From Neelides folsomi (lineage: Eukaryota; Arthropoda; Collembola; Neelipleona; Neelidae), in the NCBI GenBank assembly GCA_034687125.1, contig JAQGBZ010000007.1, positions 62,001 to 126,000 on the forward strand: a DNA stretch of 64,000 bases. Direction: 5' to 3'. A program made the position numbers and the translations under genes. A model generated the notes under the pieces. That model saw only the letters and a list, made by a program, of their open reading frames with translations, was not told the DNA's origin and ran no database searches. Below are positions 6,296 to 28,237 of the stretch, piece after piece (positions within the stretch are counted from its first letter, which is position 1; each line of letters starts with the position of its first letter).

Positions 6296-9200
6296 TTACA
6301 AAAATAGTATTTTCGAGGAATCAAGATCCTCCTCGTTTCCAAACTGATCCAGAAAGAACTGATGTTGCTGGTTCTGATAGTTGGAAGTGAAAGAAACGGG
6401 ACTGCTGCCTGATCTTCTATGGACGATTGGGACGGACGCGTTAGTGGTTCCTTGGTTCGATCTCCCATCTCCAAATCCTTGATTGGTCCCATGTGGCGGA
6501 TTTTTATAATAACTGCTCATCCGGTCATTAGTTGATGGACCATAAAGGTAGGACGGATTGGAAGTTCCTTCCATTCCACCTGCATTCCCAGGTGGAAAAT
6601 AAGTCGAACTCACACTCGTTCTAAGATGAGGATTTTGTCCTTGATGTTGATCAAGTGTGGCCACATTGGTGGCTGATCGGCTCCCCACACTCCGTGGGAG
6701 ACTTGAAGATTTGGCTGCCAAGCCTTCGCTAAGTCTTAAAGGGAGCATCTGTTGAATTCCCTTATTGGTATTGGCAAGTCCGCCTCTGGAAGCTTGACTT
6801 CCTCTGAGGACCGGACTCGGATGAATCTCCCCGCCACTATTCCCCTTTAGTGAGACTCGAGAGGCAAGAGAGGAGACTAGTTCAGGACCAATGGGAGACC
6901 CTACAGCGGCTTTGGCCGCAGAGAAATTTGCCAACTTGAGTGGCAATTGTTGCTTTGCCGTATTTCCACCGCCAGCTCCAGGAGACACGTTGGGATTAGG
7001 AGCAGAAGGGTGATGGGACTGAGTTGCCGTACGGCGGATCTGAGCCGTTGAACTCGACGTCTTTTCAATTGGAGGATTCAGCGACACCGGGGAAACGGAA
7101 TCAAGAGTTGGATGAATTCCTTTCTTCTGAAGAGCCTCCAATTTCCTTTAAGAATAAACCAAAAACCATATAAGTATTTAAACATCAATAATCAACAACT
7201 AGCAAGGGTTTAAATAAATAGGGCATAAATATGTAAGCAAAATAATATGGAGATGTTAAATTAAGTAGTAATATAGGATAAAATATTATACCTATAAAGC
7301 TGTTCTCTTTGTTGACTAATGTCAGCCTCCTCTTTTTGAAGTGAATCTTTGAAGGCTATAAGTTCTTCTTGAGCTCGGTCAATCGCTTCTTTCTGTTTCA
7401 TGAGATCCAACGCCCATTGTGCCTTTTCATCTTCGAGCCTCTTTTGAGCTTCTCTTAGATCTTCCATTCTACGATGGAGTTGAAGGGTGCTCTGAGGAAC
7501 ATGTTGAGACTGTTGCGGAATCATTTGTTGGAACAATTCTCCGCAAACGTCAGCCAATTGAATAATCATCTGAACAAAATATATCATTTACTTTCACATT
7601 ACTTCCATCTAAAACATTCCATTTATTCTTGGAAATTTTATCATTTTGCTATTTTAATATTACATTGTTAATAAAATAAAGTAAAATTTAAACCATGGAT
7701 GAAATTGACATTAAATTGGTTTAAATTAATTATGTTTGATTAAATACCTGAAATAAAACTTTGTTATTGAGATTCGAATGGGAATCAAATGCTGATCTCT
7801 GTTGGGTGTCAAACCCCCCAAAAGTGTCAGCTCTTTTAGGCAGTCCAGTGAGTCCGCTAGAACTCATGTGTTCTCCTGCACAACTAGCACTTCTGTTCAC
7901 CGAATTTCCGTTAGATAAATCCTGTTGGATAAGTCGTTGAACTTCCTACAGTTTGAGTAAAATATTCAAAATTAGTTTAAAAATCCATAATCCACTACAA
8001 ACAACATATTTAACATAATTGAATCGAAGAAGGAAAAAGTGAATTTCTTACGTTAGAGGCAACCGACATTGCATTTAAAAGAGCGTCTTTCCCTTCAAAA
8101 TTATTAACGGCCCAATGATGAGGTTTTTCACTACGCAGAGATTCAATCAGCTTCGAACGAGAACGGAGCATCGTCAAGATCTGTTTGTCTTGTTCTTGAA
8201 GCTCTTCTACGAAAGCAAAATAAATACATTTAATATTAATCTACATTGGTGAAATTATGTGTTCTACTAATAGTATATGTTGGATTTTCTTGATTTTCAT
8301 ACCAAGAGTTTTAGAAATTCGCGAATCAGAATAGTCCAAAGAATCCCCATTGATTTCTCCATCTCCTTCTGATCCAGTTTCCCATTCAGGAGCTTTATTA
8401 ATAGAGTCCCTAAAATAATAATATTTTAAATTTAAAGATAAATTAAGTTTCATAACATAAATTGCATTCAAAATATATTGTAATTTCATATGTAAATCAT
8501 GATTATATTATTAATTACAGCATTAGATCATGCCAAACTTCTCTTTGGGGAGGTTCAATGACTTGGAGTGTGATCATTTCAGTAGTTGATCCATTATACA
8601 TGAATACAAAAAGATTCGCGTTCTGTCTGGCGTCCTCCCTCACAAATAAAGACTTCAACATCAAAAGCCCAGGCTGAACAAGAAAAAAATGTCATTTCAA
8701 TTTTAATTAATTAATAATTAATTCAACAAAATATAAAATCCCCATTTTCCCATTACCAAATTATCAATTAATTTTAGTTATAATATTTATTGTTCGTGAG
8801 AAGACTTACTGGAGTAGCAAGGTGAAGCCTCCCGCTAATTTCCTGAGTGAAGATGATGGAATCATTCAAGATGAAAACATTGCACTGAACAGCCGGTTGT
8901 CCATTGATCTTTGAATTCATTTCGACTCGATTGCAATTAACGAAAGCTTTTCCACTAAACAAGAGTCTTCGACTTGGAGAAGCCAAAATCTCATCTCGTC
9001 CAATTCGCAATTTCCCAACCATTGCAATGGAATTTTTGTCCATTTTTTGACATATTTCAGTAAGGCTCTGGCGCTCAGCAACTCGTTCATTCACTTTGGA
9101 AATAAGGGCTTTGGAAGATTCCAATGTCTTGAGGAGTTGTTCTCTATAATGATCCTGAGTTTCTGTCTTTCTTAGAGGGTCAATGAGAAGAGGATACTTG

Positions 9201-11541
9201 GTAATTCTTTGGGCAACGAGGAGAAGACACTCGGGTACATTTTTTCGGCTAAGCAAAGGCTACACAAATAATCAAAAAAGATGTATAAGTACATGTACCA
9301 TAATTTGTTTCCCTTATACAGGGACATTTTTAATTCTTTCAATCATTCATTGGTTATTAAGATCAATTCACAAATGTAAGACCTCTTTGCTCCACAAGGC
9401 GACGAGGGAAGCAAACTTTGGTTTCTTCAATTCCGCTTTGAACAAGTCGAGTGATTTAGCATGAGACGAACACAATAAGCCATACAGGCGAATCATGTTA
9501 TGCCATTGTTTTCCAGTAAAATGATCAGTTAAGATATCAGCAAGTGTGTCCATTGGTTTTCCTTGATTTCTAAAATGAAGTTGACGTTCTCGCATTCTTC
9601 TCAAGAAAGAAAAATGAACCTAATTCACCAAAAATGGATCAAATTAGCACCAAAACAAAGTGAGTAGAACATATAGTATACTTAATATATAAAAATATAA
9701 AATATCTTCATTCAGAAATATCAGATTATTGAACGAAGTATTATATGATATAATGAAAATTTTGTGGATGTTATATTAACCTCAAGGAGTTCAAGAAGCC
9801 CAGGAAATAAATAGTTCGCTAATCTAGAAAAACCTTGTTTTCTCATCCCGCTCACAAAAAGATGATCCATCAGAGCAAGAGTTAAACAATGGTGTTTCTC
9901 TGTCAAGATCATCTCATACCTATGGAAGAGACAAAAAAGAAATTGGTAATTGTTCCAAAGTAAAATAATTAACCTAAATCTGAAAAGTTAAAATTTAAAT
10001 TAATATTTAAAAAGTTAATAAATTAATTTGTTTTACATGTGTTCTTGTCTTTTGACTTCTTTGTCGTCGAGCTGTGCAACAATTTCAGGATCCATCGAAT
10101 GAGCCCAACATTCCGAGTCGATGTCTTGGAGGCCCAGAGTTTCATCCGTTAAAGCAAAGGCCCCAACGCTTTCCACCGAAGACTGGAATCGATCCAGGGT
10201 GAGTTCATGTTCAGGCCCATTCATTTTCGAGAAGGAAGCGGGTTCAAGTGGACGGGCGGGAAGAGCACTCCGCTTCGTTTTATTCTTTCGTTTGAAGAAA
10301 CTTCTTTTACTCCCTTGGGGTTGTTGGGCTCGTGGTTGAGTTCGTCTGGTGTCTAACACTCCATGTTGAACTCCACCGGAACGTAGGGGAACTTCACGAA
10401 TGCTATGAATTCAAGATATGGCCTTTATTTCCTCTTTCAATTTTGAATTGGCGATAATGACTCAATCGGTGCACATTCAGGTTTGACTATCATCTAATTA
10501 TATATTATGGGATATCACTACAGAGGAGTCATATTCCAAGTTGAATGCTTTTGGTCCAAAAGGATCAATTAATATTTTAACTTTCTCTTATCTATAGTTA
10601 TAACCTTATACTATTTACATCAGACAGATTCGAGTATTTGGGAATAATAAATAGAGAAATATGGAAAAGATAAGGAATTTAATAATATGAACGCTCCTAA
10701 TTGAATGATAACAAAACATTGATATATAAATCAAATGGATGTTGTGAATAAATGCTCGTGGAATTGATTCAAGGCTATTTCCTTCTGAAATCTAAATTGT
10801 GCCTAAACTCTAATCTACTAATTACAATTACCCACCGAGGAAATCATTTAATCTATGCAGAAGCACCTCTGTACTTAATTTGTATATTATTATTAATATA
10901 TTATAGTATTTTTAAGTAATCATTTTCCTTACTATTGAGGCACCGATGGACTTGAAACGGATTTTTGAAGTGTTCCGTTGTGCGATGCTCCAAAAGATCC
11001 ACGATTTGAACTTGTGGCGCTGTGAAGACCCGAAGACCCGACATTTCTGCTAAAGCATTTTTCAATATTTTCAATGGCTTTTGCCACAGCTCCACTTTCG
11101 TGTCCACTTATGGCATTGCCATCGACAGAAGTCGCTTCTCTTTCAAATTCCTCTGTTCCTAAGCTGTTCAAACTTGTGCTGAAAAATAAATTAAATGGCC
11201 ATTTAGAAAAGCCATTAAAATGATTTTGAAGGAAAACAAACTTTAAATGGAAAAAAAGTTAATTGAAACCTTCTTCTAAAGTTGAGGGGCAATTTCTTGG
11301 GAAGACCTTGGGTTCTTTTCTGGAAAATGCCGTCCACGACGTCTTCTTCAGGAAAATTGGAAGCTATTGGAAATGTTCCGTTTTCATCTTCGAGTTCAAG
11401 TATTGACAAATCTGGGCAAGAATTGCTTATGGAAAGTATTTCAAATTGATTGTCAAGGCCATCGTACTCTTCGTCATTTCCGTCGAGTCTTGGAAGAGTT
11501 TGTGATTTGAGATTCGTCTCCAGGCGCTGATGGTTAAACAT
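6296..11541 (-). CDS. Rho guanine-nucleotide exchange factor (DH-PH), ARHGEF18/AKAP13/Cysts type
   Basis: Activates Rho GTPases by GDP release; relatives (p114RhoGEF, GEF-H1, AKAP13, fly Cysts) control junctional actomyosin. Twelve coding exons: 11541-11270, 11178-10933, 10402-10037, 9919-9781, 9619-9383, 9259-8810, 8673-8519, 8409-8303, 8206-8052, 7945-7748, 7569-7292, 7145-6296; phases agree, 1150 residues. DH domain about residues 290-480, starting RQEHMYEMILTEKHH and including the helix with ECLLLVAQRITKYPLLIDPL; PH domain about 490-610, ending near the tryptophan of REVWHDLM. A family helix follows (QEQDKQILTMLRSRSKLIE), then a coiled coil about 785-870 rich in E, K and Q, and a Ser/Pro/Asn-rich disordered tail. 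No C1 zinc finger is visible, unlike GEF-H1 and AKAP13. The first 170 residues resemble the N-terminus of the Tudor protein at 16665 (see findings). The tail beyond the coiled coil is the least constrained part. Confidence 0.9.
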
Positions 11542-13890
11542 CCTTTATAGTCCTTTTGAACACAAATAAACAATTAATCATTCATTGGTTAAAAAATAAA
11601 CGAATAAAAATTAAATGAGTCAAAGTAGAAAATAAATAAAACATTTGAAAAACTAATGTTATTATCTAATCGGACATCCTTATCTTGAAATAAATAAACA
11701 ATGAAGGAATTTAAACATATGCAACATATTTTCCTTATTATAAACTATGCATCTATAATCTTCTATGTATTTGTAAAAAATGTATCATATATATATAATT
11801 TAACGAAGGTTATCCTTAATTTAAGAAAATAGCTACCTAAATAACTTTGGCGTATTCAGTTAAAGGAAGTGAAAAAAAATTCATTGAAAAAAAATTAAAG
11901 CTGATATTGTAAATAAGTATTTATATTCACGGTATGTAATTGTGATATTGTGTAATATTGTGTCAATAATGATCGAATTGAATAATAAAGTTAATTATTA
12001 GAATGGGTTTCAAGCCCGAGTAAAATATTAATTTGTATAATATGTGGAACGTCAAATTATGTTGGCACATAGACAGAACACAGAAATGCTATGAAATTAT
12101 TTTCAATTGATTAAAAAAGTAGAATTCACAGCTTTGGCCCAATTCTTAATTAAAAATGATCTTGACACTTTTAATCCCTTTGTTAGTGCAGTCGTTGGAA
12201 GAATCTGAGAAATTATTTTTTAAATAAATTATACCTAAATGTTGGTATGTGTGAATCCCCCCCAAACAATTGACAAATGTCTAAGAAATTTCCAGATCAA
12301 GCTGGTCCGGCTTGTAAAGGGTACTATTCTTAAGGCCTTTAATTACTTGGGCCAAATGGTTCCTTCCCAATGGTCCCCAATTAAAATGGAGTCTAGATAA
12401 TTAACAAGTGGGTTTAAGATCCCCATTCTAATTTTCTCCAATGGTCTAAGAACCTCGGGATTTTTGGAGTTGTCTCGGATGGGACGGGGGTTAAGGTGAT
12501 GGGTTTGACCCGGGGTTACCTCTCAAGAGGACTTTCCCTCCCTTGTACTTGTCTTTGATGTGGGTAGCAGAAGGGTCGTTTTCATCGGAGGATGAAGTTC
12601 ATCCTGAGAGTTGAGTCGAATGAGGCCACCAGGAATCCGAGAGAGTGTTGAGGAGCTCAGGGGTCTCCCAGCTGATTCTTCAACTGACTCCTCGTCGCCC
12701 ACCTCCTTCTTCTCCCACACCAACTGGAAGGATGACGACGAAGACCAAAAATCCAAATTGGACACATTCAGCATTCAATGGTTCCTACATCCATGGTCTC
12801 CATCTCCGACCAACCATTCCGATGAGGAACAGTTCCGCTTCCTCGGTTCCCCTCCTCCACGGACCTTCATGGTTTAAAGACCAATGAGGAATCCTCAAGA
12901 ATCAACTAAATACCCAATGCTCCCCAGTACCATATAATGCACTACAATACCATTTATATCATTATTATTATTCGTGTATTATGTGTATTACACACATGGG
13001 GGCATATCTAATAGAGGAATGGAATCGAGCTGCCGAATCTCCTCACCTCATCATGGAAGGTGGAGAGACTGCTTTAAGAATAAATGAGTCAAGATCCCCT
13101 TTCTTCGCTCTCTCTTCCACTCTGTGGAAATTGAGGATCTTTGGACCAGGTGTGAAGAGAGGAAAAGATGTTCAAGTCAGAATATTTTATTACACTCAAA
13201 ACTACTCAATTGGACCCATGAACATATTTCCCAACACGCACGGAGGGGAAGTCGCAGAATGTCAGTTGGATTCTTAATATAATGAAAGAGACCGTTTTGG
13301 TAAATTGGATGAATGGATGAGAATGAAGAGATGTGGAGGTGGGAAGAAATTCCCCTTATTATTCCTTTGCCCTCAATTGTTTATGAGGACGTGAGTTTGG
13401 CTCATTTGGAGCTCGTGAGAAGAACTCTGACGGTTCAATGATTCAATGCTTGCTATCTCTTAAGAAGAAGCTCCTCATTGAGTTCACATTCGAGTTCACC
13501 TGTGGATTTGGGCCATCCACGGGCTGAATCTAACAGGGGAATATAACGTTAAATTCCTGAACATACTGCTTTCTAAACTCTGCGGAGGAAACCCTCGAAT
13601 TTTAAATTTACTCTCTCAAGAGTTATTTTTGCACTCTTTTGCATATTCAGTAGTTTTAATAGTCATAGTCGGTTTTCCATTAGTTTTTGGTAAATTTATA
13701 TTTTAATCATTATTTTACAAATTGGACCATTATTAAAATTAATCTCTAGATATATTAAATAATTTAAATGAGATATTATTTAATTAATTTCATTTTAATT
13801 AAAAGAAATGTTTGAAATGGAAAATAACACATTGTTAAACTATATCTAATATGGATAAATCTCAATAATTTCAGATTAGATTACTGAATA
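11542..13890. promoter_or_regulatory. divergent 5' region between RhoGEF and AK3
   Basis: RhoGEF transcribes leftward and AK3 rightward from this 2.3 kb interval. AT-rich sequence up to about 12240 is probably the RhoGEF 5' UTR intron. From about 12280 to 13560 base composition is richer in G and C than the surroundings, fitting promoter sequence. A minus-strand donor (AGAG then GTAACCCC) lies at 12521/12520, so a noncoding RhoGEF exon probably ends there. Open frames here (for instance 12611-12877 and 12981-13277 plus) show no family features and are not called. Confidence 0.5.
12520..12700 (-). other. probable noncoding first exon of RhoGEF (upstream end unknown)
   Basis: Read on the minus strand, sequence here ends in CCTCTTGAGAG followed by a donor GTAACCCC at 12519. 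The same block, with the same donor, lies at 16829 upstream of the Tudor gene, which has homologous coding exons 1 and 2. Shared preservation of a donor upstream of both start codons is the reason for calling a 5' UTR exon. The transcription start is not defined; the upstream border given is only a guess from where similarity (GTGGGCGACGAGGAGTC, TGGGAGACCCC) begins. Confidence 0.45.
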
Positions 13891-14962
<1,072 letters not shown>

Positions 14963-15206
14963 TTCAATGCCACATTCACATTTTCCACTATCCCTCTGAT
15001 TGATTCCATTAATTGAGCTTTATATTAATTTACTGTGATTCTGATACTATCGTTGCCTGATTTAGTAATTGCAGAAATAAGTATTTTGCTAATGCACAAA
15101 CCATTTATGAATTTGTCTCAAAGAAAGTCATTATATATATGTTCTAAAAAGCAAACAAGTTGCATTTTATTTAAAGTTATTGTACTCTGAATTTGAAAAA
15201 ATATTA

Positions 15207-15212
15207 AATAAA
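15207..15212 (+). terminator. candidate poly(A) signal of AK3
   Basis: An AATAAA hexamer lies about 245 bases after the AK3 stop and before the convergent Tudor gene ends at 15321. Such hexamers are frequent by chance in AT-rich DNA. Confidence 0.4.
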
Positions 15213-15320
15213 AAATTGACTTGAGTTACAAAAAATTAATTAACAAAAAGAAAAATAGCTTTTATAAATACCGGTATATGGGAAATTAATTTAGATAAAC
15301 AAATTCTCATAGGAAAAAAA

Positions 15321-16665
15321 TTACATAATAAGGACAGCCTTCTCTTTCATCTCTCCCTTTTGGAGATTTTCAAGGAATCGAGAAATAGTAGCATTTTGTT
15401 CTTCATATTTTCTCATAAAATAGGTTTCTTCACGTTTATCCGTCTCCCTTTGATGTTGCAAAGGATCAATAATTTTGCCATTGAGCAAAAACTTCCCTGG
15501 AGCTGCATTTCTTCCCGAACGAACCAAGAAATGGCCTGGTGCAATCTGTACAAGAAACTCAGAATTAACCCTTAAAATCAACAAAATATATTAATTGACG
15601 CAAAGAAAAATACAGTTTTTGTATGTATATGAGAAAAAGTTTAAAATTAAATTAAATTAACAAATTACGCACCCTCCCCAAAATATACCAGACTTTTTCA
15701 CATTTAACCATTTCTTGCAATACAGACGCTGGGGAGAACGGATTGTAATTCAAAAGCCCACAATCCCATTGAAAACAAATTGCCAAGGCAGGGCACTGTT
15801 TGAGGATGTCCGGAAGGTCGTATATTACTTCTGATTTCCCAATAAGCTCATCGTTCCCATAATCGATGAAATTGACGTGGATGAAGATTGTACTCAATGA
15901 CACAACTTCGATTCGCTTGTAAATTCCGCTGTGCTTGGTCACAGCTAATATCCCTGGTTTCAAATCACGATATGAAAGCTTTTCGGGAAAGCTAGTCTTG
16001 ATGAAATGCCTGATTAATTTCTCAAGATCCCACAACTCCTTTTTGTCCATATGGACATAAATTTCCTCCCATGTCCGGATGAAAGAAACATTCGCCTGAA
16101 AAAATAAAATAATAAAGGTTCGCTTAAAATCATATTATAAACCATTTGATTTTGTCAGTTAATGTCAGACACATTAATTAATATTAATTGACATTAAATT
16201 TTTGTAAATCTTACAACTATTGGAATTGGAGTGAAATCCGAATCAAGTTTAAAAGGTTCCACATATCCAATCTGTCCTGAATATCGTGCTGGGCTATCGG
16301 GTGGTTTAACCAAAATCACACTCGGGTCATCAATTTTCATTACCGATGAACTTGAAATGGATTTCTGAGTTTCATCGTGAGATGTTCCCAAAGTTCCATT
16401 TGAATTATCAACCAGAGAAATGGTATTTCGTTCAGTTACTTCAATCTCGATGCTCTTCAACCTTCCACTAAAAAATGAATAAGTCATTTAAAAAAGAATT
16501 GCTATTTTGATGGAAAACAAACAATTTTTAGATATGTTAAAAAAGTTAAAACCTTTGATAGTTGAGAGGCAATTTATTAACATCTTCGGTTTTCTCCAGG
16601 AAAACATCATCTTCATCGATAGATTTACAAGTACCATTCGTTTCAACACGTTGAGGAGCAAACAT
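15321..16665 (-). CDS. Tudor-domain protein
   Basis: Exons 16665-16553, 16467-16215, 16095-15673, 15545-15321; phases agree and give 337 residues. Residues about 125-260 form an extended Tudor domain: SFIRTWEEIYVHMDKKELW before, PGILAV, then YKRIEVVS and the aromatic/acidic core VNFIDYGNDELIG, followed by IYDLPDILKQCPALAICF. Such domains bind symmetrically dimethylated arginine, often on Piwi proteins in germ granules, and methyl-arginine binding here is inference. No membrane segment or signal peptide is seen. The C-terminal 75 residues are basic and helical (RETDKREETYFMRKYEEQ). Exons 1-2 match RhoGEF exons 1-2 (MF..QR.ETN, KLPLN, SFGASH/TLGTSH, KSxSSxSV). The ATG at 16665 sits 15 bases after an acceptor, so an upstream noncoding exon is expected. 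The last junction (AGG then GTGCGT) is slightly unusual. I cannot name an orthologue. Confidence 0.82.
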
Positions 16666-18938
16666 CCCAAATAAACCTCTAAATAAATATTGACAATCAA
16701 TTAATTAATCATTAATAAATTGATCTAATAATTATGAGATGGATTATTAGTTAGTTTTCTAATTTTCAACGTTGCTCAATGACCCAAGATAGGACATGAG
16801 ACAGGATTTAATCTTGTCAAGGGGTTACCTCTGAAGAGGACTCGCGACTTGTGACTTTTGGAGCGAGTAAAGGCAGAAAGGCGAAAGGTCGTGTCGTGTC
16901 GTATGTCACGAGACTGCGAAATGCGAAGAATATGAACACTTGGAATATGAGACGATGTCCGGCTTCCAAGACCGACCAAATTAACGACCAAGAGTTTCGA
17001 CGTCGACTTTCGAGACTCGACGAGCGTAAAACGTAGGAGGTAGAATGAAGAAAAACAAAAGCACGCCGGTTAAAGAGTTGAGGGGGTCTCCCGCTTTTAA
17101 TAGTATTGACTCCTCTCGCCACCCACCTCCCTCATTCACTATAAAACTAAACTAATGTTTAAGGTATGTTCTTTATAAATATATTATAGCATTCCAATTA
17201 TACAATTACTTTAATACTATATTTTGTATATCATACGTATTTAATATAACACCTAGTATATATAAAATAGTATATATAGTTTCAACACGATAAAATATCT
17301 CAACATTCTCAACTCAACGTTTTTTACTATTTTACCATTTCCAACGTTTTTTATTAAGTTGGAACTTCTAAGCTAGTTTTTGTATTTTATTATAAATATT
17401 TACAATTATTTAAATATTTAACATCATTTAACGAACATCATTTTATGTGGTTTTAAATTAGGAATGGTTAATTTGATTCGAGAGAATTTTAATAATGTTG
17501 GTCCATGGCCTCTGGAGCAGAGGCCTCTTTGTCCGGGGCAAGGTGTGACTTTGCGTTGTTGGGATGTTGTTGTGGAGTCTTGTCGTTCTTGGAGAGCGTC
17601 GGGGCTTGTGAGGAAGTGGGGCATCGTTGGAGGCGTTGAGCATCTGCACATCTGTGTAAACATTCCAACTGCCTCCACTTCGAGGGCCAGCCACAGGAGT
17701 TCGCCATTCGCGGAGCTGCTGCTGCCTTTACCTCATCAGCCCGCAGCCCTTACTCTAATTATAATTATTCGGATCAAACCCGCCGAGCCCCGTCCGGGGA
17801 ACCCCGATCCCATGGCTCGACCGTCCTGCCCCCCGAACCTACATACCCGCCGAGGTAAACACGTCCACCACAACTCTCCCTCCCCAAAACCATCACGAAA
17901 CTTTCTCTTGCTCGCCCTCCCTGTCACAGGCCCAGAGGATCCATTCCCAAATCACATTACATATTTAATAAAGGACCAACAAGGGTGGGGAACATCTTGG
18001 ACAAAATTACCGATTTAATCGCCACAATCTCGCCCTCATCCAAGATTTTCGAGAGGGATCGAGACGAGATCAGGCTTGGGCTAATTGACTGACTGAGAGG
18101 GAGAAACGAGTTATTTGTGTGTCAACTTGACATTTGATCCATAAACTCTCTCACTTCTCACCCTCATTTTCATTAGGCCTATTTTGATTAAGATAAAAGG
18201 GCGGTCAACAGCTCCAGCTGTTTACCACCAGAGATAATTAAAAGATAGGACACTGGGCGATGATTCATTATTGTGATGACATTGTTTGACTCATCGTCTC
18301 TGTCATGTCCAAACTATTTCTTTTCCAACTTGCATTTTCTAAAATCAAAGTAACAAAACCGGAATTTACCATCTTTTTCATCTTGCGATTTTTAATTAAT
18401 AGACATATTGTGTTGTGTTTAATTAACCTTTTCGATGTAAGGCCTTAAGGGGAATTCATGGCTAATTTGATAATATTTTTATCTTATCACTGAATACAAA
18501 ACATTACAATGGAATATTGTTTGTTTATGTTTCAGAGCTTCAAATCGGGTTTTACAATATGTGATCAACAAGTTGCAGATTAAGGAACCTTTTCCGTCCA
18601 GAAGATTATTGACCTATTGAAGATAATTATTTGGGATATTTTGAAGAATATTCTCATAACCCTCAATTAATGTGCTGTATTGTTGAAAATAATATACATT
18701 GTGTATTATTATAATATAAATATTTACTATATTCCGATTAAGTGATATAGTGAATGCGTTAAATATTAAAGATTGAAAAAGGCTGAGAATGAACATTTGC
18801 TGTTTTGACTAAATTGAATTGTGGGTAAGAAAAGAACACAGGCAAAAGAAACCTACAAGGGGATTTTTGCTCAACAAGCGATTAATTTTTTATTATTTTT
18901 ATTTAGCCATTACTGAAGCTGAGTCAAGTGATTGTCTA
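16666..18938. promoter_or_regulatory. divergent 5' region between Tudor gene and MAGI
   Basis: This holds the Tudor 5' UTR (noncoding exon candidate ending at 16829), an AT-rich middle at 17150-17460, and a GC-richer block at 17464-18100 that fits a promoter or CpG-rich 5' exon of MAGI. A good acceptor (TTTTTATTTAG) at 18905 precedes the MAGI start, so an upstream noncoding MAGI exon is likely in the GC-rich block. The open frames at 17464-18018 on both strands have no recognisable domain and look like composition artefacts. A perfect 8-bp-arm hairpin lies at 17507-17525. Confidence 0.5.
16829..17130 (-). other. probable noncoding first exon of Tudor gene (upstream end unknown)
   Basis: On the minus strand the sequence ends GTCCTCTTCAGAG followed by donor GTAACCCC, nearly identical to the block at 12520 upstream of the RhoGEF start. 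About 250 bases further upstream, GGGAGGTGGGTGGCGAGAGG and GGGAGACCCC also recur in both places in the same order. This supports a noncoding exon and promoter-proximal sequence copied between the two genes. The exact start is unknown. Confidence 0.45.
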
Positions 18939-24323
<5,385 letters not shown>

Positions 24324-27035
24324 TCTTGATAACTATTCTCAGCTTTAGTTATTCTTAAATTACGAAACACCTAGCTCTTTGAACCCGTACCATTTATATA
24401 CAATAGGTAAGGCCGAGATCCTTTAAAAGAGATGGGACATTGAGAAACGCGTGTTAAGATTCGTGTACAAATATCAATGTGAATGATCTTCAAAATAACG
24501 CAAAGTTAATTAATTAATTGTAAGAAGTCGATCAATAGATATTTTAGACTTTCAATGTAAAATGCATTTAATTTTTGTACTTCCATACTAATTCAAACGA
24601 GTAGTTTTTTTTATATCTCGCTCGCTTTTCATATGTATGTATATTTATGTATTTAGCAAAAAAAAGTTAGTACTTATCGTTAACAAAAATATAAAGTAAC
24701 CAAAACCTTACATAATTCTCCTGATGTATTTATTAAAGAACAAAAAAGGAAGCTGTTAACTCTGGGAATTTTTTATAATATACTTAAATAGGCTTGTGAA
24801 GAAAGTTCTTTTGAGAAAAAAAGTATTTACAATACGTCCTCCGAAACTAAAACCTGAAAACTTACAATAAATAAAATCCAAAGACTAAAGATATTTTTAC
24901 ATAAAATATTAGAACAAATTATAACTATCTAAATATTATATACTATGTATTATGAATCATAATATATTGAAATGTGACGAAACTATAAACACAAGAAATG
25001 AGCGATTCTTGTGAACTTCAATAATTGTAATTTTTATATTTTTACTCATTTTATAATGGAAATTAATCGGCATTTACACACCTCCGAATGGTTTATTCGT
25101 ATATTTAAATTACGAATAAACTACCTAAATCTGATTGTATTGAAACCAATTGTTGCTGTTAAGCTCACCTTACAATCAATTAAATGAACAGAAATGGAAT
25201 GGCACACGATGTGAACATTCTATTATAAATATGTAAGTATTTGTGAGACATTACATTGAATTTAATTAGTTGTGAATTTTATACTTAACTTCTTTAGTTG
25301 TTATTTATCTCTCTCTCGCTCTAATTTTTCTAGACGCATTTGTACATTTTATTTTGAGTAAATTGGGAATATTTTTGAAGCTTTACTTAATATTTTGTAA
25401 AGACATATTTATATGTATTGATATCTACTATCTTTTAAATCAAAATGATTTTAAGGTGATAAGGATGAAATAATGAAAGAGGTATTTGGTTAAATACTTA
25501 CAAATTAGCAATTATGTAAGAAATTATGTTATGCTTTACATTTTGTAGCTGAGACAAAATAACTAGGTAATTTTTAAAAAATTATATAAAAAAGAACAAT
25601 TGTGAATTGAGGATCAATTTTTAGCAAAATGAAGCATCATCATAACTTATATAAAATAAATATTATTATCTCGTTGATATCTTGTTATGACTAGAATAAT
25701 AATTTTTTATATTCTCCTGGTAAGAGAATTAATCCTTCTCTGAACTTATCAGTAGTGCCTTTTCGTATTAATTATATATTTTTAATTAATATTATTGTTT
25801 ATGATGTACTTATAACTTAATGTAAAAACTTCCCACGCGTTAAATTGTGTGGTCAATAGCCTTAGAAAATATTTTAAATATATATTAAAGTTGGTTGGTA
25901 TAGCAATACATACATTCGTGAATGTATGCCTTTGGTAGGTTTAATACAATTATTGCATATACATACGTTGTGTACTTGTGTATAAGGTAGTGTAACATTT
26001 TTGGCAGCAGGTACGTTCTTATAAATATTCATATTGTTATATAAGTACAGTAAAATTCTATCCCTTTATATAATTTTCATATACCTAAAATATGTAATAT
26101 ATATTTATAAGTAAAGCAGTAAGTGTTTTTATTAAATGTATATTTATATGTTAAATATTCTCATAGATAAATATATCTGTAGTTATTAAACACAGTTTAA
26201 CTAAAAGTAAGGATCAAATATATATTAAATATATTTATAATTTAAGATACTTATATATGTGCCGAAAATATTTATCTTGTACTTAAAATAATTATTTATA
26301 CATTAATCGGTTGTTATTTGTTAGCAATGATTATGTTAGTGATTAGATAAATAATTTAGTTCGAAAACAACTCCATTATGTGTTTTTTATTTATATTTAT
26401 TTGTAGTGATTCAGATGACTCTCATTTATATCCATTTTAGCATTTATGGAATCTCTATTTGAATCTTGAGGGCTTAATCGCTAATTTCGAAAACCTCTTT
26501 GTTAAACTTCTTACATTATCGAATAATTATTAAATGATCGTGAATGAAATGAAAAATGCAATATCAACAATTAATGTCTATGATTTAGAAACTGTTGGCT
26601 ACATGATTAGATTATTTCCTTAAATTACGAACCCCAGCCTTTAAATTGTTTTTATATATTTTCATTTATTAAAATTTAACATTAAGTTTTACATCGTATA
26701 TAAGTCTTTAAATTAAAAACAATTTTCGAAGAGAATTTAAACCTTCAAAATTGTAAACTTGTGAACTGATGACCAAATGACAGTGAAAGATTGAACGAAA
26801 TTGCTCCTGCGGCTGTGCCCGACTCTTCTACATTTAACTCTTTATCATTGTTACAAAAACTAATATTTTATATGTACCCTATTGTATTAAAAGAGATTAA
26901 AAATGTACCAAGGACATTGATAATTCATAATTATGACCCTAATTGTACATCTACTTACGAGAGAATATGCGAATAAATGTTTATTATAAACTTGATTTTA
27001 CAAATTCCATTCATTTCATCAATTTGCAATATAGT
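24324..27035. other. intergenic, very AT-rich
   Basis: MAGI 3' UTR followed by sequence without recognised genes. Several AATAAA hexamers within the first kilobase could end MAGI. A perfect 9-bp-arm palindrome (CATACATTC, two-base centre, GAATGTATG) is at 25909-25928. No RNA gene or coding exon was recognised. Confidence 0.6.
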
Positions 27036-27614
27036 ACTGGGTGTCAAGAAACTAAAGTACCCAGGTGGTTCAAGAAAACTGTTCAAGTTAGAAAATCGTG
27101 TTATATACCATTTGAAAAAAGTTACACGAAAGAAATTATTTTCAGATTGATATCTCAAGGTTTAAATTTTTAACAAGGGGTTAATTGGAAAAAATTAAAA
27201 CGTTCGTTTAAAGAAAGGAATAGCTAGGGGCTGAAATGAAAAGTAAAGTTGTTTTATTATTTATTTGTCTTTAATAATTTCAATAGCTTATAATTTTAAT
27301 TATGGCACTTATTAACGACACTGAAGAAGACCGTTACCGTGATCGTGTTCGTGCTCTTGCATGGAAAGAAGCAAGAGATAACGGAGAGATAAGGAGAAGA
27401 AACAACATACTATTGACGAAACGACAGCACTTATTGACGTTTTTAAGATAATTTCATTTAACTGCTCATTAAAAATTCAAACTTTATAATATCGATCTGT
27501 TATTTATGAATCTAATGTAACTTTTCACATTCTTTCGAATGGTGTATAGCACAATGTTCTAACTTATGCAGTTTCCTCACACTTAATGGGTACTTTAGTT
27601 TCTTGACACCCATT
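27036..27614. mobile_element. short inverted-repeat DNA element (MITE-like)
   Basis: The left end CTGGGTGTCAAGAAACTAAA and the right end are inverted copies of each other: 27038-27063 and 27588-27613 match over about 26 bases, and weaker similarity continues inward for roughly 90 bases (CAAGTTAGAA, TATACCATT, AAAAAGTTAC on both arms). A TA dinucleotide flanks both outer ends, as expected for Tc1/mariner-type insertion. At about 580 bp it is too small for a transposase, so it would be a non-autonomous element. Inside, 27302-27451 is a short open frame of 49 residues of unknown meaning. Superfamily assignment is inference from the TA flanks only. Confidence 0.65.
27302..27451 (+). CDS. small open frame inside the inverted-repeat element
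   Basis: A 49-residue frame starting MALINDTEEDRYRDRV with many charged residues and a basic centre (GEIRRRNN), predicted helical. It lies within the MITE-like element. It has more mixed composition than other chance frames in this AT-rich interval, but I recognise no family. It may be a leftover of a transposon protein or chance. Confidence 0.2.
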   Translation: MALINDTEEDRYRDRVRALAWKEARDNGEIRRRNNILLTKRQHLLTFLR

Positions 27615-28237
27615 ATATGGTATTAAAGAAATGAACCGTTTTTAAATTTTCAGACATTGAGTTTATTTTGAGGCTATATATGAATTACAATTATAAAATG
27701 ATGAAATAAATAAATTAATTGATGGAGCTTATAAAATGATATACATATTGTTCTAAATACGTGAGCTCGAGCTCGGTTTGAATTCACGAACCCAAGTGTT
27801 AATTAAGGAATGTCAATTTGTTTCACTAGGTAATTCTGAAATAAAAATTTAAAATCACGACGAATAAAGGAAACAATGAATTGAACCTTTTGACTTAAAA
27901 AAAGCTCTCACACAATGCGAGAGCGAATGTCCTCTGCTTTACCATTCTACTAACGATAGATTATCTCTCAGCAAAATATATAGTATATGGAGCCAATGGC
28001 ATTCAAATTCAAATTAATTTAATAACTCACGAAAATTTTCACTTGCAATAATTACTAATTGAATTAAAACTAACACTCAAACTTAATTAGGCTCATCAAT
28101 ATAAAAGAATGACTTTTTTTTAAATTAAAACTTATAATTAATGTAGAATGCTTTGTCACCAATTATAGGTAATTGAAAATTGGAATTAATTGAAATAAAT
28201 GAAAGGACTAATTGGAAAGTATTCATGATTTTGCACT
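27615..28237. other. intergenic, GGNBP2 3' flank
   Basis: AT-rich spacer between the inverted-repeat element and the GGNBP2 stop. It contains a tRNA-like fragment on the minus strand near 27905-27965 (see findings) and the GGNBP2 3' UTR. No other feature was seen. Confidence 0.5.

Follow-up and report, generated by a model that had tools for sequence, protein, structure and literature searches.

Homologous 5′ ends of unrelated neighbouring RhoGEF and Tudor-domain genes in the collembolan Neelides folsomi

The window analysed here is a 64-kb stretch of the Neelides folsomi genome (bases 62001-126000 of contig C7, in an assembly of 75.1 Mb and 840 contigs) with a G+C content of 35% and spliced genes. 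On its minus strand lie two unrelated genes, one encoding a RhoGEF and the other a Tudor-domain protein, whose 5′ ends are homologous by alignment; the homologous segment runs from 12709 to 10942 in the RhoGEF gene (1768 bases) and from 17133 to 16342 in the Tudor gene (792 bases). The matches occur in the same order in both: first an upstream block and a donor in the 5′ untranslated region (5′UTR), then the start codon and the last part of coding exon 1, next an intron of 91 or 85 nucleotides (nt) together with its splice sites, which are in phase 2, and finally stretches of exon 2. An earlier note on this DNA had claimed that two unrelated minus-strand genes begin alike, and the coordinates and sequences that it gave were found as described, apart from corrections on exon 2 that are set out below.

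The RhoGEF gene was modelled with 12 coding exons from 11541 to 6296 on the minus strand, all GT-AG, that encode 1150 amino acids with no inner stop. Splice sites in this model and in that of the Tudor gene were picked by eye. The protein contains a DH domain (PF00621, 75.4 bits against a Pfam cut-off of 27.6), and the candidate PH region that follows scored 14 bits with PF17838, under the cut-off of 22.8; the alignment to the AKAP13 chain spans residues 266–619. The best PDB match was AKAP13 (expect value (E) 5.2e-36) and the second ARHGEF2. The protein has the DH domain and probably the PH region in common with the ARHGEF2/AKAP13 subfamily, but its N-terminal 172 residues have no credible counterpart among the PDB matches listed: one, to a bacterial CheC/FliN fusion protein, has E 0.034, the other (E 0.87) reaches into this part with no more than its edge, and both were taken as chance. 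Another RhoGEF match in the genome, on contig C232, is 28% identical. The parts of the gene are as follows.

12644..12709, minus strand: upstream block (GGAGGTG..GAGGAGTC..GGGAGACCCC..CTCAAC), presumed promoter and upstream limit of the homology, placed by alignment and the genome-wide pattern.
12512..12533, minus strand: end of the presumed 5′UTR exon with its donor (AGAG/GTAACCCC, the stroke marking the exon end at 12520), identical to the Tudor copy at 21 of 22 bases.
11270..11541, minus strand: coding exon 1 (MFNHQRLETN...KLPLNFRR) with a phase-2 donor, from the gene model.
11179..11269, minus strand: intron 1, homologous to Tudor intron 1 by the intron alignment.
10933..11178, minus strand: coding exon 2 (...GSFGASHNGTLQKSVSSPSVPQ) with the phase-2 donor TA/GTAAGG, the homology ending at 10942, from the gene model and alignment.
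6296..10402, minus strand: exons 3–12 including the stop codon, with the DH and presumed PH regions, from the gene model, Pfam and the PDB match.

The Tudor gene model consists of four coding exons from 16665 to 15321 on the minus strand and encodes 337 amino acids. Its Tudor domain was recognised by Pfam (PF00567, 25.2 bits against a cut-off of 23, and 28.6 bits in the genome search). By sight, the FIDYGN motif is kept in this domain and the first cage aromatic is not evident. In each piece of the gene that was tested the declared frame was the best scoring of all six. A single-sequence structure prediction of the protein had a mean predicted local distance difference test score (pLDDT) of 31.4 and was set aside. 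On contigs C209, C149, C210, C176, C240, C190 and C418 nine more Tudor-domain matches exceed the cut-off, which makes at least ten with this gene. Its parts are the following.

17074..17133, minus strand: upstream block, presumed promoter, placed by alignment and the genome-wide pattern.
16821..16842, minus strand: end of the presumed 5′UTR exon and its donor, the exon ending at 16829, placed by alignment and the exact pattern.
16553..16665, minus strand: coding exon 1 (MFAPQRVETN...KLPLNYQ) with a phase-2 donor, its coding score matched by 1 of 2000 noncoding stretches.
16468..16552, minus strand: intron 1, from the intron alignment.
16215..16467, minus strand: coding exon 2, shared as far as 16342 and then continuing with 42 codons of its own that start with an in-frame ATG at 16340-16338 (M81), from alignment and coding score.
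15673..16095, minus strand: exon 3, which holds nearly the entire Tudor domain, from Pfam and the model.
15321..15545, minus strand: exon 4, with the stop codon TAA at 15323-15321, from the model.

The two regions were compared directly. Blastn of 10.0-13.5 kb against 15.5-18.5 kb gave four collinear matches on the same strand, namely the end of exon 1 with intron 1 and the start of exon 2 (E 8e-10), the end of exon 2 (9e-9), the UTR donor (2e-4) and the upstream block (0.37, weak alone); the remaining matches listed, at E 0.009 and worse, were AT-rich or out of order. The best local Smith-Waterman score was 88; dinucleotide shuffling (300 rounds) gave at most 38, and comparison with 107 further chunks of the window at most 49. 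The chain of blocks scored 209.7 bits, the highest value for 400 random stretches of the same length in the window being 94.3. From 12709 and 17133, respectively, the upstream block aligned with a score of 32 (maximum of 23 in 500 shuffles). For the shared N-terminal protein the alignment score was 60 and the maximum in 5000 shuffles 55, while for each of three protein pieces chosen by eye from this alignment none of 5000 shuffles reached the score. In the codons aligned by hand 129 of 183 bases (70%) and 30 of 61 residues are identical, with identities at the first, second and third codon positions of 43, 47 and 39 of 61, a small difference.

Intron 1 interrupts both genes at the same place and in phase 2. 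Its two copies (91 and 85 nt) agree in 67 of 77 aligned columns, with 22 gap columns, and the identity over all 99 columns, 68%, is near that of the hand-aligned codons. The alignment scored 68, compared with a maximum of 52 in 2000 shuffles and a best score of 10 among nine control introns. The likeness is interrupted and bounded: nothing significant aligned upstream of the upstream block (130 of 500 shuffles were as good), between this block and the donor in the UTR exon (303 of 500) or past SPSV/SSSV in exon 2 (355 of 500), and the middles of exons 1 and 2 could not be aligned between the copies. The ends of the UTR intron are weakly similar, the start being reached by 9 and the acceptor side by 43 of 500 shuffles. 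Beyond the RhoGEF donor, in intron 2, an apparent extension of the homology was not used, as 1016 of 18000 random 20-mers and 26 of 547 that start with GTAA scored equally. The presumed 5′UTR exon of the Tudor gene (16829-17082) is rich in CpG, with 24 in 254 bases versus 4 in 140 in the RhoGEF copy, with which it does not align.

The shared blocks are rare in the assembly. A pattern of GAGGAGTC and GGGAGACCCC separated by 8–30 bases occurs in two places, both of them here, and its reversed control in none. The exact donor block, which the earlier note had seen to recur at 12520 and 16829, is likewise confined to these two places (12512-12533 and 16842-16821); when two mismatches were allowed a third place appeared, with two mismatches, and the reversed control matched nine, so that only exact matches are informative for this block. 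The exon 2 core agrees at 21 of 23 bases, correcting a previous count of 22 of 24. With up to three mismatches it was found in ten places (reversed control, two), of which the two exact ones are both here and the next has two mismatches. Searches for a third copy recovered the N-terminal proteins themselves and nothing else, and a DNA search with the Tudor 5′ region matched itself alone; both also missed the known second copy, so an equally diverged third could escape them.

At the junction the two genes part in a manner that the earlier note had not described. It had placed the divergence after exon 2: the divergence is real, but the shared part stops within Tudor exon 2, where the 42 unshared codons follow. 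These codons form an open, coding-like frame (with stops penalised, 5 of 2000 noncoding stretches score as high), and the first of them is the in-frame ATG of M81, for which base composition gives a chance of about 0.019. The Tudor protein, in our view, probably once began at M81. The donor of RhoGEF exon 2 is in phase 2, compatible with RhoGEF exon 3. That of Tudor exon 2, ATAGTT/GTAAGA, is in phase 0, which suits Tudor exon 3 and not RhoGEF exon 3, and a second possible donor directly at the junction, TCG/GTAATG, is also in phase 0 and does not fit RhoGEF exon 3 in frame.

The best explanation overall, and one that we hold to be probable, is that a Tudor gene already in place received, in frame and close to its start, a copy of the RhoGEF 5′ end. 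In this event about 1.8 kb of RhoGEF sequence, from the presumed promoter through the 5′UTR exon and its intron to coding exon 1, intron 1 and the greater part of exon 2, would have been copied and would have landed 4.4 to 5.4 kb upstream with its orientation kept. There it would have been fused to the beginning of a gene with a single Tudor domain, close to the ATG with which that gene began (the present M81). Transcription of the Tudor gene would then start from the copy of the RhoGEF promoter, its message would be spliced through the copied exons, and about 80 residues of its protein, probably disordered and placed ahead of the Tudor domain, would stem from RhoGEF. The roles of the block as promoter and of the donor as the end of a 5′UTR exon are presumed from their place and conservation. 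A partial duplication, as had been suggested, through which two unrelated genes came to have the upstream block, UTR donor and N-terminus in common is well supported by the alignments, intron 1 and the genome-wide pattern.

The direction from RhoGEF to Tudor is favoured, with fairly good odds, rather than proven. It is favoured because the Tudor copy is the shorter in exon 1 (113 versus 272 nt), in exon 2 up to the junction (126 versus 237 nt) and in the UTR intron (150 versus 967 nt, with acceptors picked by eye), for which deletions in the copy are the simplest account; because an in-frame ATG sits at the Tudor junction; and because the extra coding parts of RhoGEF were not found elsewhere in the genome by a protein search, albeit one that also misses the known second copy. 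We considered the opposite course, in which the 5′ end was originally that of the Tudor gene and RhoGEF gained its promoter and N-terminus from there, and judge it unlikely. The homology is in itself symmetrical and neither N-terminus was found elsewhere in the genome. This course, however, needs separate gains of unique sequence in RhoGEF exon 1, exon 2 and the UTR intron, the coding ones lacking a match within the limited reach of the protein search, and it leaves the ATG at the Tudor junction to chance.

Several observations weigh against a copy of the RhoGEF 5′ end in the Tudor gene. From the upstream block to the donor the Tudor copy is the longer, 254 versus 140 nt, and the two cannot be aligned; this also speaks for the opposite direction. 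The junction ATG may be there by chance. The donor-like GTAATG at the junction would yield a shorter exon 2 that is also in frame, which leaves the actual Tudor transcript uncertain, and the Tudor domain exceeds its Pfam cut-off by just 2.2 bits. For 13 of 14 pairs in C. elegans, the ancestral gene was the longer of the two paralogues (PMC3449122, as far as its account of these pairs goes), a result that adds little here because only the longer paralogue of those pairs had unique sequence. The genes around the copies are as follows.

13891..14962, plus strand: adenylate kinase gene of five exons and 224 amino acids between the copies, on the opposite strand to them, from a gene model; we take it to be AK3-like from family motifs.
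19777-23532, plus strand: gene upstream of and divergent from the Tudor gene, seen by eye; presumably MAGI-like, from guanylate kinase, WW and PDZ-like segments.

The earlier note had also placed AK3 between the copies. A one-step tandem duplication would predict a second AK3 and Tudor remnants to the right of 17.1 kb. At 17.14-25 kb no trace of either was found, the best matches (E 0.047) being chance-like, and this mode was rejected; its failure likewise counts against a copied 5′ end. Elsewhere in the genome the AK3 search listed only adenylate-kinase-like matches of 33–36% identity.

The remaining alternatives fare less well. That the Tudor locus is a decaying chimera, a pseudogene rather than a working gene, would suit its weak Pfam score and the fast divergence of the shared protein part, in which 30 of 61 hand-aligned residues are identical, but we find it improbable given four exons (with GT donors and AG acceptors, picked by eye) that share a single open frame, the best score of the declared frame in the pieces tested and the small difference among codon positions. 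Less probable still is that the upstream copy is an alternative promoter with first exons for RhoGEF, spliced past AK3, the Tudor exons being a separate gene. Its strand, its upstream position and the conserved upstream block would fit this arrangement; however, RhoGEF exon 3 requires phase 2 and both upstream exon 2 donors (GTAATG at the junction and GTAAGA at 16214) are in phase 0, and the upstream exon 2 continues into a coding-like stretch whose GTAAGA donor fits Tudor exon 3. Resemblance by chance or composition in AT-rich sequence, to which the 129 of 183 alike bases, the shortness of several blocks and the E of 0.37 for the upstream block might point, is very improbable: none of the 300 shuffles, 107 chunks or 400 chains reached the observed scores, and the two-part upstream pattern is confined to the two loci.

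Judged from its sequence, the pair is a diverged partial 5′ duplication between unrelated neighbours and a clear example of an established route to new genes. As a structure the Tudor gene is chimeric, or partially duplicated, with a common 5′ part that includes introns followed by unrelated sequence, and to that extent the term chimeric gene used in the earlier note applies. The stricter definition of a chimeric duplicate stated in Katju 2012 (PMC3449122) demands that the unique part have another source in the genome; by the BLAST criterion given there none was found, the Tudor body matching itself and one sequence at E 0.168 (38% over 50 residues); none of the nine other genomic Tudor-domain matches was among those listed for this query at E up to 10. 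Its source may have been lost or have diverged strongly. Recruitment, as that paper describes it, involves a unique part without other genomic match, as seen here within the reach of the Tudor-body search, and recruited sequence that is intergenic; here it encodes a Tudor domain over the Pfam cut-off. The pair resembles fog-2 and Hun, the partial duplications with recruitment treated in PMC3449122, in that part of a gene is joined to sequence of a new neighbourhood for which no second genomic source was found. Unlike it, fog-2 took up noncoding sequence at its 3′ end, in line with a definition by recruited intergenic sequence, whereas the recruited part here is gene-like. As in the Drosophila chimeras from tandem duplications (Rogers et al. 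2017, PMC5460883, in its treatment of these) and in Sdic (named in PMC3449122), a gene 5′ end with regulatory sequence was apparently shuffled onto nearby sequence. The Drosophila chimeras are polymorphic and many are very young, in contrast to a case with 129 of 183 bases in agreement and no second copies of neighbours found nearby. In a single literature search no paper was found that treats RhoGEF, a Tudor domain and a chimeric gene together.

According to the same account (PMC5460883), such chimeric events often alter expression at once. Should the upstream block be a promoter, the Tudor gene would follow RhoGEF in its expression pattern, with about 80 residues of RhoGEF origin in its product. 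The closest solved match of the Tudor domain is 7CFB (E 0.2), which is Krimper eTud1 (PMC8249470, in its description of that structure), with a weak alignment around FIDYGN...LPD..K..PA.AI. Besides this resemblance there are differences from Drosophila Krimper, which has two Tudor domains against one here, and the Pfam model of the first Krimper Tudor domain gave 13.2 bits, below its cut-off of 27. Because the Krimper eTud1 match has an E of 0.2, binding of a PIWI protein is a lead and not a finding. A far-reaching and quite doubtful idea is that a Tudor protein, possibly from the PIWI-interacting RNA (piRNA) pathway, acquired the promoter and the N-terminal regulatory region of a RhoGEF that activates Rho at the actomyosin cortex. 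A germline-type protein that reads PIWI arginines would then be made and localised like a RhoGEF; if true, such a fusion would link piRNA-type and Rho pathways in this lineage. The upstream block, UTR donor, intron and N-terminus of what would be one event can be traced although no more than 30 of 61 hand-aligned residues are identical. With this pair it can be tested directly how the capture of a promoter and N-terminus affects a Tudor gene, and for how long regulatory sequence shared through such an event persists.

Two further observations concern the window and the assembly. A pattern search for TTAGG, the repeat typical of arthropod telomeres, gave 28 overlapping matches on six contigs and none for the reversed control. 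When the 64 kb were compared with themselves at E 1e-5 with the low-complexity filter on, two repeat pairs were found, the RhoGEF and Tudor 5′ ends and an inverted pair near 27 kb. The latter (27035-27190 and 27452-27615, about 160 bases, 71% identical, E 1.5e-17) is the strongest repeat of this comparison and is perhaps the remnant of a mobile element.

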